This document shows, piece after piece, positions 4,155-27,124 of a stretch of DNA of 30,868 nucleotides. The notes under the pieces are model-generated. The model did no database searches. It was not told where the DNA came from and was given only the letters and a program-made list of their open reading frames with translations. Made by a program: the position numbers and the translations under genes. The stretch is taken from IMG/VR virus record IMGVR_UViG_3300037247_001856, positions 1-30,868 of that record; one strand, 5' to 3'. How positions within the stretch are numbered: the stretch's first letter is position 1; each line of letters opens with the position of its first letter. This DNA is from a virus.

Positions 4155-4686
4155 CCTAATCCTACTTGCCGCGTTGATCCTAACGACGCCCGCACTCGCT
4201 GAAGAGCCGCTCGCGTACTCGGCAACTCCCGTCACCGGCGTCGTGATCGATGTCGATGGGAACGTGGTCTTGTGGCTCCGCTACAAGGGCGTAGTGGGCG
4301 AGTACAAGTTCGAGCTACGCGACACGCCACCGAGGGCACCTGATCCGCCTGATGACCCTGCCCCGCCCGAGACCGACCTTACCGCGTTTGTCGCGCGACT
4401 GACGGCCGACGTGGAGGCGTCCGACCACGAAAGCGTCGCCGATATCTTTCGAGCCATTGCCGACAGAATCGCCAGCGGAGACCTACGAGGAAGTACAGCC
4501 ATCGGGGCCGCAACTGCCGACTCGCTCCTCGGAGCGAAGGATAAGAAGGGCAACAGGCCGAACCGGGCTGCTTGGGCGCCGTGGTTCTCGGCGTTGATGA
4601 CGCACCTGTTCGTTGACGTCCAACTCGTGACGCAGACCCAGTGGGAGAAAGCATACCGCGAGATTGCGAAGGTGGTGAAGCCATGA
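4126..4686 (+). CDS. Secreted protein of unknown function upstream of the metalloprotease
   Basis: A signal peptide is evident: MRSLILLAALILTTPALA, preceded by seven residues if the ATG at 4126 is used. That start has AAAGGA at a good distance; the ATG at 4147 has none, so 4126 is preferred. The mature part has a short beta domain (VTGVVIDVDGNVVLWLRYKG), a Pro/Asp-rich linker (residues 69-84), and an Ala-rich helical domain with several Trp residues (AAWAPWFSAL, TQWEKAYREIAK). The stop overlaps the protease start as ATGA, so the two proteins are probably made together. A partner or periplasmic cofactor role for the protease is possible. Confidence 0.6.
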   Translation: MSNESCAMRSLILLAALILTTPALAEEPLAYSATPVTGVVIDVDGNVVLWLRYKGVVGEYKFELRDTPPRAPDPPDDPAPPETDLTAFVARLTADVEASDHESVADIFRAIADRIASGDLRGSTAIGAATADSLLGAKDKKGNRPNRAAWAPWFSALMTHLFVDVQLVTQTQWEKAYREIAKVVKP

Positions 4687-5588
4687 GTATGAACGCGAGC
4701 CAGATTATCGAGTTGCTCGACTCGACGGGCCACCTCGATTACCCGTACGGGAAATGGCAAGAGCGTCCCCCGGCGTCCACGGGCTTGGATGTTTCGGGGG
4801 TTCAGCGAGCCATCGCCAGCTACCAAGACTTCAACATGGCGGCGCTCGAGCCGCTTTGCCAGTGCCACCACTCCCGGCCACCACAAGCGAACGGCGAGAT
4901 TGGCCCCGCAACCCGCGAACTCTTCAAAAGCCGTATTTGCGGCTGCCCGGATTACGGCGAGAAGGTGTTGCCAGTCGTGGGCAAGGGTAGCTGGAAAGAG
5001 TGCCACGGAATTGGCAAATACCACGCGGCCACGGTGTACATCGACGAAAGCGGGATGCCGGGTTTTCTCAAGCCACTGTTTGATGAAATTTGGGGCCGAG
5101 TGGTCCGCTCATACGAGGACATCGGGCTTCGGTGGATTCGCACGACCAAACGGGACGCGAATATCGATTTCCGGTTCGTCAACCGCGGTGCGGGCTGGAT
5201 TGGGCTGGCCATCGTCGGGCAAGGTCAATCATGCGGTAGCCAGATTTGGTGCAAGTACGTTTCCGGATGGCACCCAAGCAACGTAGTACCCGCGTGGACC
5301 GAGTTGATTCAACATGAACTGGGACACAACTGCGGTTTGCAGCACAGCCGCGGCGGCAAGATGAACGCCAGCCTGATCATTGGCGGCGACCCCACGTGGC
5401 GAGGCGACCCGTCAGAATCGATCCTGAAGCGGCTATACGGAGGCGTGCCGATACCTGCACCTGAACCGCCCGTGCCGCCAGGACCGCCGCCGGGCGAGGA
5501 AGATCCGCGCACGTTCTCGGGCATCCTGACAAACAAACTGAAGGAGCAAGTCGACGTTATCATCCGCCCGCGGGAGACCCCCGACTAG
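4683..5588 (+). CDS. Matrixin-like zinc metalloprotease with peptidoglycan-binding-like prodomain
   Basis: The ATG at 4683 overlaps the previous stop (ATGA) and has GAAGGTGG upstream, so it is preferred over the longer frame from 4641. The zinc site HELGHNCGLQH (residues 211-221) and a following Met (M227) give the metzincin signature HExxHxxGxxH plus Met-turn. Residues 35-80 resemble a peptidoglycan-binding-like fold (VQRAIASYQ, GEIGPATRELF). It is followed at once by RICGCPD (84-90), close to the cysteine switch (PRCGVPD) that keeps matrix metalloproteases inactive. Residues 255-280 are Pro-rich. No signal peptide is seen. It might act on host envelope protein at lysis, or on virion proteins; the substrate is unknown. 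Confidence 0.82.
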   Translation: MSMNASQIIELLDSTGHLDYPYGKWQERPPASTGLDVSGVQRAIASYQDFNMAALEPLCQCHHSRPPQANGEIGPATRELFKSRICGCPDYGEKVLPVVGKGSWKECHGIGKYHAATVYIDESGMPGFLKPLFDEIWGRVVRSYEDIGLRWIRTTKRDANIDFRFVNRGAGWIGLAIVGQGQSCGSQIWCKYVSGWHPSNVVPAWTELIQHELGHNCGLQHSRGGKMNASLIIGGDPTWRGDPSESILKRLYGGVPIPAPEPPVPPGPPPGEEDPRTFSGILTNKLKEQVDVIIRPRETPD

Positions 5589-5806: not shown

Positions 5807-6061
5807 ATGGATACTATCCAGATAATTGTCGTTGTGGCCCTTGGTTTTTACGCTGGTGGGTTCATCGCTACTTTTCCGCACATTGCATTCATGCTTGTTC
5901 AGCTAACAAAAGAAGACTGGCCAGTCTGGAGGTGTATTTGGCAGGCGTTTTGCGTTTCATCTTTCTGGCCGGGAGCAGTGGGACTACTGGCTTTTTATTT
6001 TGTTCTAACACTGAGGGACAGAAAACTATGTCGCTCGGTGTGGATACGATTACGTGATTAG
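5807..6061 (+). CDS. Two-helix membrane protein, possible holin
   Basis: This 84-residue protein has two hydrophobic segments, roughly residues 5-32 (IIVVVALGFYAGGFIATFPHIAFML) and 50-68 (WPGAVGLLAFYFVLTL), and ends with a basic tail (RDRKLCRSVWIRLRD). The short, positively charged C-terminus is typical of class II-like holins, which open the membrane at the end of infection. A shifted ORF overlaps it (5770-6057), but this frame has the clean membrane topology. Position next to another holin-like gene supports a lysis role; sequence alone does not prove it. Confidence 0.5.
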   Translation: MDTIQIIVVVALGFYAGGFIATFPHIAFMLVQLTKEDWPVWRCIWQAFCVSSFWPGAVGLLAFYFVLTLRDRKLCRSVWIRLRD

Positions 6062-6075
6062 CAGGGAGGCCGATC

Positions 6076-6285
6076 ATGGGGTACGAATGGATAGCTGGGG
6101 TTATTATTGCCGGCATGGTCTCGGCCAGTCCGATCGTCACGGCGGCCATCGTGAAGATGATTCCGCGAAACACGAATGGACTTAGCAAGCGTGTCGGCAA
6201 GGTGGAGCAAGAGCAGGCTGCAAACACTGTACGGTTTCAAGAGATTCTTCGTCGCCTGAAAAGTATCGAGGACAAGATGGAATGA
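6076..6285 (+). CDS. Membrane-anchored coiled-coil protein, holin-like
   Basis: The start has GGGAGG upstream. The 69 residues comprise an N-terminal transmembrane helix (WIAGVIIAGMVSASPIVTAAIVKMI) and a charged amphipathic helix (GLSKRVGKVEQEQAANTVRFQEILRRLKSIEDKME). One membrane helix followed by a coiled coil is seen in several small phage holin or BhlA-like families. The stop overlaps the next ATG (ATGA). Lysis is the best guess because of the neighbour at 5807. Confidence 0.5.
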   Translation: MGYEWIAGVIIAGMVSASPIVTAAIVKMIPRNTNGLSKRVGKVEQEQAANTVRFQEILRRLKSIEDKME

Positions 6286-11482: not shown

Positions 11483-12808
11483 ATGGCTATGTTTGAAAAG
11501 AATATCCTGAAAGTCGGCAAGTATCAGTCGCCGGACGGTGAGTTGAACATTACGCCCGAACGGATCAAGCACTTTGCCAGCGAGTTTTCGCGGATGAAAA
11601 AGGCCGGCTTGGCCGTGCCCATGGCGTGGTCGCACCCGGACGCACTGGCTGATTCCTTGCCCGTGGTTGCCCCAAAAGATCGCCGGAGGCCGCCGCAAGA
11701 CACCGCCGGCTATCTGACGGGGTTCACGCCAGCGAAAGATGGCCAATCCGTTGACATTTGTGTTGACGTGCCGCGAAAAACCGACGCCGAAAAAGTCAAA
11801 GCCAATCTCGCTTTCGTGTCGCCGGTGATTCTCGATACGTTCAAAGACGGCCAGGGTGAAGATTATATCGATTGCATTACGCACGTTGATCTTGTCCAGT
11901 ACCCCGTCGATTCCAAACAAGGAAAGTTTTCGCCCGTTGCGACCGCGTGTGCGTTGCGGATGTGTCTTGCCGCCGACGCCAAAACCAGCCAGAAACCGAG
12001 CTATTACCGCATGGCACACGAGGACGACAAAATGGGTAAAGACCGCACCGGCAATCTGAGCGTCGACGACGGCAACAAACCGATCGTGACGGACGATTCG
12101 GACAAGTCGGAAAACAACAAGACCGACAACAACGACGATTCGACCAGCGATAATCCGGGTGAGTCAAACGAGAACAACAACGACGTCACATCCGATTTGC
12201 AAGACGGAACCGGCGAGGCCGTAAGCGATGATGCTGGTCGGCTCCGCTCGGTAATCGAGGCACTGGCCGCCCTGAAGGTCATGCTGCCCGAAGACACCAA
12301 CACCGTCAATCTTTTGCCGCGACTTGAAGCGGCTCTTTTGACCTCCGCCGCAATCACAGGAGAAGGCGACATGGGAATCCAAACCGGCACCGCGGGGCTG
12401 GAAACAGAGAGTCCGGTCTTGGCGGCAATGTCGCTTCAGGCCCGGTCCGCTCATGCGTATGCGTCGAATCAGCATCGAGAGGCCATCAGCAAGCGGCTTT
12501 CGCTGTTGCTCGAAATCGGTCGATGCACGCCGCATGAAGCGAAAGAACGCGGCGAGATGGTAAAGGCCGTGCGGCTTTCCCTGGACGACAAGGGCAGGCC
12601 GGCTGTCGGCGACCTGGAGAAGTGGATCGAGTGTCGGGAGGCTTGTCCGGCCGGTACGCACTGGGACCCGGAAATGCGGACGCGAATGTCCACGCTGGAA
12701 GTTGGCAACCCGCCGGCAGGCCTGACCGGTCCGTTGTCCGACGAGGAAGCAGAAGAACTTGCCGACGAAGTTTGCGGGAAGCCCAAGGCAACCGCTGGCA
12801 CGAAGTAA
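11483..12808 (+). CDS. Capsid protease/scaffold-like protein
   Basis: The 441-residue protein stands just before the decoration and major capsid genes, where phages carry a maturation protease and scaffold. Residues 8-155 form one domain (NILKVGKYQSPDGELNITPERIKHF, VPMAWSHPDA, YLTGFTPAKDGQSVDICVDV, KANLAFVSPVILDTF, CITHVDLVQYPVD). These resemble the N-terminal part of Mu I-type head proteases; a catalytic triad cannot be assigned by eye. Residues 183-245 are an Asp/Asn/Ser-rich disordered linker, and residues 250-441 are helical and acidic. The start ATG has no Shine-Dalgarno, but two in-frame internal ATGs do. Confidence 0.65.
   Translation: MAMFEKNILKVGKYQSPDGELNITPERIKHFASEFSRMKKAGLAVPMAWSHPDALADSLPVVAPKDRRRPPQDTAGYLTGFTPAKDGQSVDICVDVPRKTDAEKVKANLAFVSPVILDTFKDGQGEDYIDCITHVDLVQYPVDSKQGKFSPVATACALRMCLAADAKTSQKPSYYRMAHEDDKMGKDRTGNLSVDDGNKPIVTDDSDKSENNKTDNNDDSTSDNPGESNENNNDVTSDLQDGTGEAVSDDAGRLRSVIEALAALKVMLPEDTNTVNLLPRLEAALLTSAAITGEGDMGIQTGTAGLETESPVLAAMSLQARSAHAYASNQHREAISKRLSLLLEIGRCTPHEAKERGEMVKAVRLSLDDKGRPAVGDLEKWIECREACPAGTHWDPEMRTRMSTLEVGNPPAGLTGPLSDEEAEELADEVCGKPKATAGTK
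12371..12808 (+). CDS. Possible nested scaffold protein from an internal start
   Basis: An in-frame ATG at 12371 has a perfect AGGAG (12358-12362) eight bases upstream, better than the start of the full gene. It would give a 145-residue protein, MGIQTGTAGLETESPVLAAMS to the shared C-terminus. A second in-frame ATG at 12032 has GAGG at the same distance and would give 258 residues, starting right after the protease-like domain. Lambda C/Nu3 is the known precedent for a scaffold nested in a protease gene. No direct evidence of expression. Confidence 0.4.
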   Translation: MGIQTGTAGLETESPVLAAMSLQARSAHAYASNQHREAISKRLSLLLEIGRCTPHEAKERGEMVKAVRLSLDDKGRPAVGDLEKWIECREACPAGTHWDPEMRTRMSTLEVGNPPAGLTGPLSDEEAEELADEVCGKPKATAGTK

Positions 12809-24486: not shown

Positions 24487-24731
24487 CCGCTGACATTTCG
24501 CGTTGTTACGGATTCGACGCGACGAAACTTGACCGAGAAACGCTGGCTGGGTTTGCGGCCAACATGCCGAGAATGAAAGCACAGGCAGCACTGGAAGAGG
24601 GCAGCTATGATCCCGCAGATGATCAATCCGTGTATCGATTGGTGCTTGCGGCCACTGGGAGCATCCAGGCAGCGAAACGTGCCGAAACAGAATCACTGAA
24701 AGTTCGCGTGAAACAGTCAGAAACGAAGTGA
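24121..24731 (+). CDS. Predicted frameshift fusion product, 203 residues
   Basis: Zero-frame codons to 24477 (119 residues), then a -1 shift, add 84 residues beginning NELAADISRCYGFDATKL and ending VKQSETK. The extension has no start codon near its beginning; its first ATG (24564) leaves only 55 codons, with no good Shine-Dalgarno. The sequence is coding-like: charged, helical (RETLAGFAANMPRMKAQAALEEG, QAAKRAETESLKVRVKQ) and uninterrupted. The stop TGA is followed six bases on by the portal ATG. This matches the G/GT layout of lambda-like tail chaperones, though such extensions are also found in other phage protein pairs. Confidence 0.7.
24471..24477 (+). promoter_or_regulatory. A AAA AAA -1 ribosomal frameshift site
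   Basis: Within the adenine run 24470-24478, A AAA AAA sits in the correct phase (CAA AAA AAA ACG) for -1 slippage. Only 7 bases separate it from the zero-frame stop (TAG, 24484-24486). The -1 frame is then open for 84 codons to a TGA at 24729-24731. A possible stimulatory stem, TCGCGT (24498-24503) with ACGCGA (24517-24522), lies about 20 bases downstream, further than the usual 5-9 bases. Confidence 0.75.
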
Positions 24732-24736
24732 AAGCT

Positions 24737-27124
24737 ATGAACCTATTCGCCAGAGCCGCGACGTGGTTGAAGAATAGAGACTGGTTACTCGGAACGCCGA
24801 AGACTGCGGACTACAAAGCGATTCCGCACAATATGTTCCAGCAGCCTCGCGACCTGCCGGTCTTCACGTTTCACACGATCCACGCAATGCTCATGGACCC
24901 AACGGTCCGGCTGGGCCTTGCTATGCGAATGGCCCCGCTGACTTCGGCCGAATTCGCTTTCAAGCAAGGGACGGACGAACGCGGCCAAGCGAAATGGGTT
25001 CCCGGTGTTCAAGCGAAGAAACCGGAGGTGGCTGAATTTGTTCTCCGGCAACTTCAAAGGATCTGGCAACACGATCTGCCTAAGATTCTCTCTGCTCAGA
25101 TTTGGGGCTGGGCTGCCGGCGAAGTTGTCTTGCGATTGACGCCGGCCGGCATGGTCGAATTCGATACGATCCTGCACAGACACGCGAGGGACGTTCGGCC
25201 ACTGCTTGGGAATGGCGAAGTGAAGGCGGTTCGGTTTCTTCGGGTTCGCGGGACGTCCGGGAATGTTGAATTGAGATTCCCAAAAAGCTACTGGCACGTT
25301 TTCCGGGACGATGAGGGATCGGCCCATAATATGCCGGTTTTGCATGGAGCGTATTCGCCGTGGGCGGATAAGTGGCTGAACGGTGGGGCATTAGACGTGC
25401 GGCGGTTGTTTATGCACATGCACGCGTATGGAGGAAATGACCTTACGTATCCGCCAGGCACAACAGACGACGGCGAAGGGAACCCAATTCCTAACCGCGA
25501 TATTGCCCGTCAGATTGTGGAGCAACTCAAGGCTGGCGGGTCAACAACGCGGCCGGCACAGTTTGAACCGAATACCGGTAAGCCGATGTGGGAACTTACC
25601 CGGGCAACCGTTCCCGCAAACCCAACCCACATTCTCGAATACCCAAAGGATCTTGATGTTGAGATTCTTCGCGGCATGGAAATCCCGGATGACGTTTTGA
25701 CTTCGGAAGGGACTGGGGCGTGGCAAGGCAAGCAGGTACCCATGCAGGCGTTTTTCTCTGGGCTGAATACATGGTTGACGGTGGTCGTGCGGGTGACGGT
25801 CAAACAGATTATTGAGCCGTTGGTGTTGTTGAACTGGGGCAAGCCTGAAGAGTTTGAAGTGATGACGAAGCCGCTGGACGTTCAGGCGATGGAAATCAAC
25901 CAGAGGAATCAGCCGGAGGGGGCCGGGCAGGGCGGACAGCCGGGTCAGCCCGGGCAACCGCAGCCGGGGGCGGTGTTTGGCCAGCCGGGCCAACAACCGG
26001 GCCAGCCCGTTCGGCCGGGTCAGCCCGGGAATGGGCAGGGGCAACCGGGACAACCGGGCGTGCCGGCACCCAGAAGGCGATTCGGCCTCGATCCAATGGA
26101 CCCGGTTCAAGCAGTCGGCGAGGGCGTTCTGTCGGCCGGCGAACTGGTAACGGCGGCTAAGGAAGCAATGAGGATAAGATTAGCCCGCCCTTTTGACGAA
26201 TCGAAAATTAGTCGCGAGGGGAAAGGCACAGGCGAGGGCGGGCAATTCGCCGAGCAAGCGGGGGCAGACGTTGCAACTGAAAAGAAAGTATCAGATCGTG
26301 TATCGGCAACCATTAAAGACAAACAACTGACGCTCGGGAGCGGCGAATCCCTCCCGGGCCACTTACAAGGCTTGCGGATTCCGCCGGCGTGGCGAGATAT
26401 AACCATTTCCCTTGACCCCAATGCCGCACTTATTGCCACTGGTTTTGACGCGAAGGGTCGCAAGCAAAGCGTTTACTCGGCTGCTCACAGTCAAAGTCGA
26501 TCTGCGATGAAGTTTTCCAGGATTACGGAATTACGGCAAAAGTTCTCAGCGATTCAGGAACAAAATAGAGCGAACATCGAAAGCGAGAGCCCCTTGGTTC
26601 GCGATGCTGCTTCCGTTTCATCGCTCATTATGGCGACGGGACTCCGGCCGGGCAGCACGCGAGATACGAAAGCAGAAACACAAGCCTTCGGGGCAACGAC
26701 ACTAGAGGGTAGGCACGTTGTCGTATCTGGTACAAATGTGCGATTGAAGTTTACTGGAAAAAAGGGCGTACCTATTGACATACCAGTCAACAACCCGATG
26801 GTCGCTGCTTTGCTTCGCGAACGAAAAGAGTCCGCCGGCGATAGCGGCCGACTCTTTAATGTGAGCGATTCGCAATTAAGGGGATATGCAAAAACACTAG
26901 ATGGTGGATCATTCAAGCCAAAAGATTTTCGCACCCATAAGGGAACGAGTCTCGCTGCCAATCTCGTCAGTCGAGGCAGTGTCCCTAAATCAGAAAAGGA
27001 ATACAAGAGTCGAGTGCGAGAAGTCGCGAAGTCCGTGGCAGCGGCCCTCGGAAATACGCCGGCTGTTGCTTTGCAATCTTACATCGATCCGACAGTTTTC
27101 TCGAAGTGGAGACCAGCAGCATGA
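24737..27124 (+). CDS. Portal protein fused to type IB DNA topoisomerase
   Basis: A single 795-residue frame from the ATG at 24737 (a GTG at 24728 is possible). Residues 1-390 read as a Mu gp29/DUF935-like portal (LPVFTFHTIHAMLMDPTVRLGL, ILSAQIWGWAAGEVVLRL), the ring through which DNA enters and leaves the head. Residues 391-446 are a Gly/Gln/Pro collagen-like linker, then FDESKIS...GGQFAE (486-506). Residues 525-795 are a bacterial type IB topoisomerase: GLRIPPAWRDI, LRPGS (R637), FTGKKG (K675), KDFRTHKGT (R732), LGNTPAVALQSY (N773, nucleophile Y782). All five active-site residues align with the known family. The next gene starts within its stop codon. The fusion would put the topoisomerase at the portal vertex. 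Confidence 0.87.
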   Translation: MNLFARAATWLKNRDWLLGTPKTADYKAIPHNMFQQPRDLPVFTFHTIHAMLMDPTVRLGLAMRMAPLTSAEFAFKQGTDERGQAKWVPGVQAKKPEVAEFVLRQLQRIWQHDLPKILSAQIWGWAAGEVVLRLTPAGMVEFDTILHRHARDVRPLLGNGEVKAVRFLRVRGTSGNVELRFPKSYWHVFRDDEGSAHNMPVLHGAYSPWADKWLNGGALDVRRLFMHMHAYGGNDLTYPPGTTDDGEGNPIPNRDIARQIVEQLKAGGSTTRPAQFEPNTGKPMWELTRATVPANPTHILEYPKDLDVEILRGMEIPDDVLTSEGTGAWQGKQVPMQAFFSGLNTWLTVVVRVTVKQIIEPLVLLNWGKPEEFEVMTKPLDVQAMEINQRNQPEGAGQGGQPGQPGQPQPGAVFGQPGQQPGQPVRPGQPGNGQGQPGQPGVPAPRRRFGLDPMDPVQAVGEGVLSAGELVTAAKEAMRIRLARPFDESKISREGKGTGEGGQFAEQAGADVATEKKVSDRVSATIKDKQLTLGSGESLPGHLQGLRIPPAWRDITISLDPNAALIATGFDAKGRKQSVYSAAHSQSRSAMKFSRITELRQKFSAIQEQNRANIESESPLVRDAASVSSLIMATGLRPGSTRDTKAETQAFGATTLEGRHVVVSGTNVRLKFTGKKGVPIDIPVNNPMVAALLRERKESAGDSGRLFNVSDSQLRGYAKTLDGGSFKPKDFRTHKGTSLAANLVSRGSVPKSEKEYKSRVREVAKSVAAALGNTPAVALQSYIDPTVFSKWRPAA

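Follow-up and report, generated by a model that had tools for sequence, protein, structure and literature searches.

The window, that is, the whole stretch of DNA that was analysed, is an entire virus record of 30,868 bases (IMG/VR IMGVR_UViG_3300037247_001856). This tailed-phage genome has genes for a primase, a terminase, a Mu-type portal, a minor head protein and a tape-measure protein, and its structural block extends over ~11.5–30.5 kb. Outside this block lies a gene whose product, P0001, resembles the zymogens of the matrix metalloproteases (MMPs; Table 1). The ATG start codon at 4683 agrees with the start of a 60% identical protein encoded at locus L194 (L-numbers denote related loci which carry relatives of the protease). 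An alternative GTG start at 4641 would make P0001 longer by 14 amino acids.

Table 1. Coordinates of the protease gene, its domains and motifs and the neighbouring genes discussed in the text (residue numbers refer to P0001)
Feature	Position	Strand	Basis
Secreted partner (186 aa) with a hydrophobic, signal-like segment at the N-terminus, a Pro-rich linker and a C-terminal domain of five helices	4126..4686	+	Hydrophobicity, model, related loci
Pro-MMP-like metalloprotease gene (protein P0001), 301 aa	4683..5588	+	Translation, phmmer, fold superposition, L194 start
Residues 1-85, helical prodomain-like segment (helices 5-14, 37-50, 52-61, 75-81)	4683..4937	+	AlphaFold model, aligned to pro-MMP prodomains
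CGCPD cysteine-switch motif, C86-G-C-P-D90 (Cys86 codon 4938-4940)	4938..4952	+	Conservation in viral rows
Residues 91-102, low-confidence linker, candidate activation-cleavage region	4953..4988	+	pLDDT < 50
Residues 103-258, metzincin catalytic domain	4989..5456	+	Pfam, AlphaFold model, superposition
HELGHNCGLQH zinc-binding motif, residues 211-221	5313..5345	+	Sequence; zinc ligands and Glu in 74/74 viral rows
Met227, Met-turn candidate, 6 residues past the third His	5361..5363	+	Column has Met in 68/73 viral rows
Residues 259-301, Pro-rich C-terminal tail	5457..5585	+	Sequence; pLDDT low from about residue 271 on
84 aa, two hydrophobic segments, holin candidate	5807..6061	+	Hydrophobicity; no Pfam match
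69 aa, a hydrophobic segment followed by a charged stretch, holin/spanin-like candidate	6076..6285	+	Pfam XhlA E 0.092, below cut-off

The protease gene is coupled to the gene of a secreted partner protein. The stop codon of the partner overlaps the protease start codon as ATGA (4683–4686), and the same overlap is found in L045 and L098. Relatives of the partner stand at position −1 of the protease in L012, L164, L098, L179, L036 and L045 and at position +2 in L019 and L177. The match of the partner profile in L008 is weaker, and in L194 a secreted protein in the partner position was judged by eye. When the loci with a partner were labelled in the tree, ten of the eleven labelled rows (L194 included) fell into one branch, with an inner fork supported at 96/80, and L008 was placed outside. 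At E <= 0.001 the structural model of the partner matched no fold, whether TIMP-like or not. Identity of the partner with the cluster-9 protein of a clade of large genomes (contigs up to about 205 kb) was rejected, the hhalign probability being 2%. This clade has a neighbour of its own, namely an ORF of 341 aa that carries the papain-like motifs GDCVSW and NSWG and lies at positions +2 to +4 from the protease; it was recognised by motif in 30 loci, and Pfam does not confirm the assignment.

The two small hydrophobic ORFs downstream of the protease gene (5807–6285) are holin candidates without an accepted family match; in PHROGs the second of them gave only weak matches, to proteins annotated as unknown. 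No endolysin family was recognised among the window ORFs scanned. P0001 itself could be identified neither with a recognised lysis family nor as a peptidoglycan hydrolase, and its fold is that of a metzincin. Hydrophobic neighbours were not significantly enriched near the proteases (30/143 near versus 17/132 farther away, p 0.08).

Two further observations concern the gene surroundings. Near the protease we recurrently find secreted proteins of ~430–750 aa with a CxxC(H) heme-like motif (cluster 21), which adjoin the protease gene or lie close to it in L067, L102, L182, L183, L036, L175 and L018. Those of L182 and L102 have no Pfam match, and plasmids yielded no match when searched with a protein of this cluster. 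Within the window, the ORF at 24728–27124 encodes an unusual portal–topoisomerase fusion in one reading frame, with Portal_Mu (3.8e-8), Topoisom_I (DNA topoisomerase IB, 7.4e-20) and Top1B_N_bact all over the Pfam cut-off.

Motifs and predicted fold of the protease

The first-pass annotation had proposed that an N-terminal segment, a cysteine-switch-like motif, a zinc site and a following methionine occur in the order known from animal MMPs, and the translation of 4683–5588 does contain all of them (CGCPD, HELGHNCGLQH and the Met) in this order. CGxPD followed by HExGHxxGxxH at an MMP-like distance was matched a single time in the window and in none of 100 shuffled versions. The switch motif departs from the PRCGxPD consensus in that Ile precedes the cysteine, a position occupied by Arg in 67 of 73 viral rows. 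In a phmmer search against the PDB sequences the top match of P0001 was human proMMP-1 (1su3, E 0.001), and the alignment is colinear over residues 70–283, thus spanning prodomain and catalytic domain. In this alignment the Met of P0001 is two residues closer to the third His than in MMP-1, and the HELGHN core is adamalysin-like.

The best Pfam match of P0001 is Reprolysin_3 with 27.2 bits (cut-off 22.4), and the M10 family (Matrixin, PF00413) reaches 12.6 bits, under its gathering cut-off of 24. For this reason the protein is here termed MMP-like and is not assigned to M10. The L194 protein behaves in the same way, Reprolysin_3 being over the cut-off and M10 not. Among ten diverse relatives, Matrixin is over the cut-off in nine and PG_binding_1 in five. 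In P0001, for which the first-pass annotation had suggested a peptidoglycan-binding-like segment, PG_binding_1 is not recognised by Pfam, and the N-terminal part has the fold of an MMP prodomain. A PHROGs search with P0001 gave no match; its relatives found only weak matches there, three of them to the peptidoglycan-binding parts of endolysins. Judged by hydrophobicity, P0001 contains no export-like segment above threshold, and such a segment precedes the switch in 0 of 62 viral proteases (the testable ones among the 73 distinct cores described below).

An AlphaFold model of P0001 was built on 32 aligned viral sequences and has a mean pLDDT of 77 and a pTM of 0.70. The mean pLDDT is 71 at residues 81–90 and 41 at residues 91–100, and the linker 91–102 is below 50. 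When the model was searched with Foldseek, rows 1–18 were the human pro-MMP-9, -1, -10 and -7 zymogens. The best row of the VIA re-alignment was proMMP-2 (1eak) with Z 19.3 over 215 residues and an rmsd of 2.9. All of the top 14 rows are zymogens (Z 17.5–19.3, 201–215 residues, rmsd 2.8–3.9) whose alignments begin at model residue 1–7 and end at 252–260, and the MMP rows with the catalytic domain only rank below them (Z <= 15.7). The alignment of propeptide-bearing karilysin covers model residues 83–255, i.e., it runs from the switch segment onward. Since the superposition with the zymogens covers the whole chain, prodomain and catalytic domain of the P0001 model are mutually placed as in zymogens. 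In the model the helical prodomain (about residues 1–85) packs on the catalytic domain (about 103–258) with CGCPD in between, as in human pro-MMPs, and the same superposition would bring Cys86 close to the zinc. On the basis of sequence and model we consider it almost certain that P0001 has the pro-MMP fold and the zymogen layout; the earlier description of the protein as built like an MMP zymogen is thereby borne out.

The Pfam result and the adamalysin-like HELGHN core could also mean that P0001 is a reprolysin/adamalysin-type (M12B) metzincin with a convergent cysteine motif rather than a relative of the MMPs. We regard this as highly improbable, since the MMP zymogens head the structural ranking, the tree puts P0001 among viral proteins passing M10, and both the prodomain and the CGxPD motif are of the MMP type.

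The viral family and the conservation of Cys86

With a degenerate DNA pattern (CGxPD, 342–372 bases, HExGHxxGxxH), 75 stretches were picked up in contigs of uncultured viruses, each with an ORF which encodes the full motif set. Applied to 257 billion bases of genomes, the pattern gave 19 matching stretches, nine of them with a motif-bearing ORF. The viral loci are redundant: 160 loci, many of them from the same contigs, reduce to 73 distinct cores. P0001 belongs to an unannotated viral family that is widespread in uncultured viruses. Its nearest relative found is the L194 protein, with 60% identity over 252 aa and CGCPDYG retained, and in a library of viral protein structures an unannotated Caudovirales protein, A0A6J5RTD2, matched with E 2.4e-25 and 36% identity. 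P0001, L194 and L019 are joined in the tree with a support of 100/100; long branches leave the deeper joins unsure.

Sequence searches with P0001 directly gave no match in viral contigs or genome contigs and one weak match in plasmids (E 0.3). No relative of P0001, nor of the more central L067 protein, was found among 50,697 GenBank phages, and no phage record matched the window capsid protein. The three TerL relatives found were distant. A motif scan showed the protease motifs in the window only. Genome searches at 1e-20 in two phyla yielded 0 of 194 genomes (without positive control) and 1 of 151 genomes.

Some members of the collection deserve a separate mention. In L046 (11716–12390) and L059 the helical prodomain is absent and an RRYF-type, possibly twin-arginine signal lies just upstream of the switch cysteine; these may represent a short-prodomain, possibly exported version of the protease. 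The protease of L082, on a contig binned as Heimdallarchaeota, is sister to that of the viral locus L018 (100/97 in the tree), and L082 may be a viral contig within the bin or an archaeal virus. L106 encodes an unrelated large protein and was excluded from the family.

Since the first DNA pattern demanded a cysteine, its conservation was tested on sequences found without that demand. For this purpose a scan was run with the catalytic motif [IMA]xHExGH[AN][LIC]G only, and the best 80 of 113 relatives were examined. Every one of these 80 loci (58 of 58 distinct regions) has the cysteine in the switch position. Eight of the 58 regions keep the cysteine even though the rest of CGxPD is changed (CAYPD, CGCAD, CAHPD, CSCPD, CALPE, CMTPD, CGTKA and CNHPD), and L102, which came from another scan not requiring Cys, has CAVHD at this site. 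A cysteine which persists where the surrounding motif decays behaves as expected of a zinc ligand.

We also read the cysteine columns 86, 88, 190 and 217 in a 74-row viral alignment, which mixes CGxPD-selected sequences with others; only the 58 regions above stem from the Cys-independent scan. Cys86 is present in all 74 rows and thereby equals the three His and the Glu of the zinc site. Cysteine is found in only 9 of 74 rows in column 88 and in 2 of 74 in column 217, which rules out Cys88 and Cys217 as the switch, and the column of Cys190 contains Gln in 67 of 74 rows. The first-pass annotation had left the choice between Cys86 and Cys88 undecided; the invariance of the former and the rarity of the latter make Cys86 the switch candidate, and we think it very likely that Cys86 is the zinc-blocking switch. 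P0001 contains eight cysteines, and a CKWP/VC pair recurring in many relatives suggests disulphides, so that a purely structural role of the switch cysteine could be envisaged. Such a role is very unlikely in view of the invariance of this residue alone among the four columns and its place within CGxPD at MMP spacing, in a segment covered by the zymogen superposition.

Known systems and a possible role of the zymogen

Like the animal MMPs (proMMP-1, -2, -3 and -9), P0001 has a helical prodomain, CGxPD, HExGHxxGxxH and the Met in the same order and spacing, and the likeness extends to the whole-chain fold. Unlike them, it has no signal peptide and no hemopexin domain, carries Ile before the switch cysteine, has a shorter Met-turn spacing, scores below the M10 Pfam cut-off, is encoded by a phage and is coupled to a secreted partner. 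Outside the phages, the bacterial matrixin-family protein WP_202677761.1 of a Paenibacillus sonchi plasmid (NZ_CP068596.1) also carries PRCGLPD and HEFGHSLGLNH together with an extension at its N-terminus; it differs from P0001 in its long repeat C-terminus and its location on a plasmid, and in the tree it is grouped with other cellular proteins, away from the clade of the window. A Bathyarchaeum genome encodes PRCGLPD together with HELGHALGLAH. Insect viruses (granulovirus, entomopoxvirus, ascovirus, nudivirus and iridovirus) encode MMP-like folds which match P0001 by structure, more weakly (best E 2.7e-9) than A0A6J5RTD2 does. Phages are thus not alone in having this layout.

Latent metzincin zymogens are also known from bacteria. 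According to PMC6949598, mirolysin and promyroilysin use a cysteine switch and karilysin, a bacterial MMP, uses Asp. In contrast to P0001, karilysin, mirolysin and myroilysin have short prosegments (14 residues in karilysin) and no helical MMP prodomain, and they are not phage-borne. In the open-access literature we found no report of phage MMP zymogens. A broad phage family with an invariant switch cysteine and no export signal, together with a coupled secreted partner in the branch of the window, thus appears to be unreported there.

The reading that we favour, and consider probable, is that P0001 is a phage MMP-type zymogen which stays in the cytoplasm locked by Cys86, is released late into the envelope and is activated there. 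Its latency, timing and target are what we infer from the layout described above. Lacking an export signal, the zymogen would be made in the cytoplasm in the manner of a classical endolysin. In this reducing compartment the thiolate of Cys86 would act as fourth ligand of the catalytic zinc and maintain latency. A late opening of the membrane during infection would then give the zymogen access to the envelope, where the cysteine could be displaced by cleavage near residues 91–102 or by oxidation or another modification of the thiol. The active enzyme might then cut envelope proteins or the co-encoded secreted partner and in this way aid lysis or exit. Taken by itself, a role of P0001 in lysis or exit is plausible, and we propose it tentatively.

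If the switch works, phages would share the zinc–thiol lock of the animal MMPs, and proteolytic zymogens would join the known ways in which phages time their exit. The family, being large, signal-less and easily expressed, would then also be suited to studying pro-MMP activation outside animals. The origin of the MMP prodomain comes into question as well: the layout is common among uncultured viruses, and its motifs also occur in at least one plasmid of a bacterium and one genome of an archaeon (Bathyarchaeum).

P0001 could alternatively be a secreted or released ecological factor, the product of an auxiliary gene, which degrades an extracellular protein or the partner and is accessory to lysis. 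The Listeria protein Mtz is a metzincin of phage origin, and its cleavage of the co-encoded lipoprotein Tim sensitises the cells to phage lysis and increases it, as described in PMC8235301. Compared by description, both systems pair a phage-linked metzincin with a co-encoded secreted partner, and by analogy Mtz/Tim is the nearest functional precedent for P0001. The text of PMC8235301 does not contain the word 'cysteine' and so describes no switch in Mtz. Against the alternative, Mtz is secreted whereas P0001 has no export signal, and Tim is TIMP-like whereas the partner model matched no fold at the threshold given above. We therefore regard this alternative as unlikely.

A virion-associated or injected protease, acting in entry or against host proteins, would agree with a tailed-phage genome that has structural genes, and zymogen latency would protect capsid assembly too, the prodomain merely guarding this step. 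The protease gene, however, sits with the secreted partner and the small hydrophobic ORFs outside the structural block, and the linkage to the partner recurs in related loci; a virion protease is thus unlikely.

Returning to the late-activated zymogen, we surveyed the loci for possible activators. The window showed no subtilase or thioredoxin-like activator. The gene immediately downstream of the protease in L019 encodes a subtilase (Pfam S8, 3e-40), and in L194 a secreted thioredoxin (PF00085, 1.6e-12) is encoded two genes beyond it. CxxC thioredoxin-like ORFs are located three and four genes beyond the protease in L177 and L179, respectively, with weak Pfam support for L177 and none for L179. 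The L019 partner ends with a CPPC segment, for which Pfam does not support a thioredoxin assignment. Animal pro-MMPs can be activated by oxidation or glutathionylation of the switch cysteine, as stated in PMC7226053. It is conceivable, and in our view quite unlikely, that phages run an activation cascade on the cysteine-switch protease to time the breakdown of the envelope, the latent cytoplasmic pro-MMP being switched on outside by a co-encoded helper. This helper may be a second protease (the subtilase of L019) or a secreted thioredoxin-like protein (L194, L019, L177, L179), and the latter may act on the switch thiol or on the partner. Such a cascade would resemble the activation of animal pro-MMPs by proteases or by thiol modification. 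In L194 the thioredoxin gene is followed by a gene for a DUF2585 membrane protein (11845–12468, 5.9e-19).
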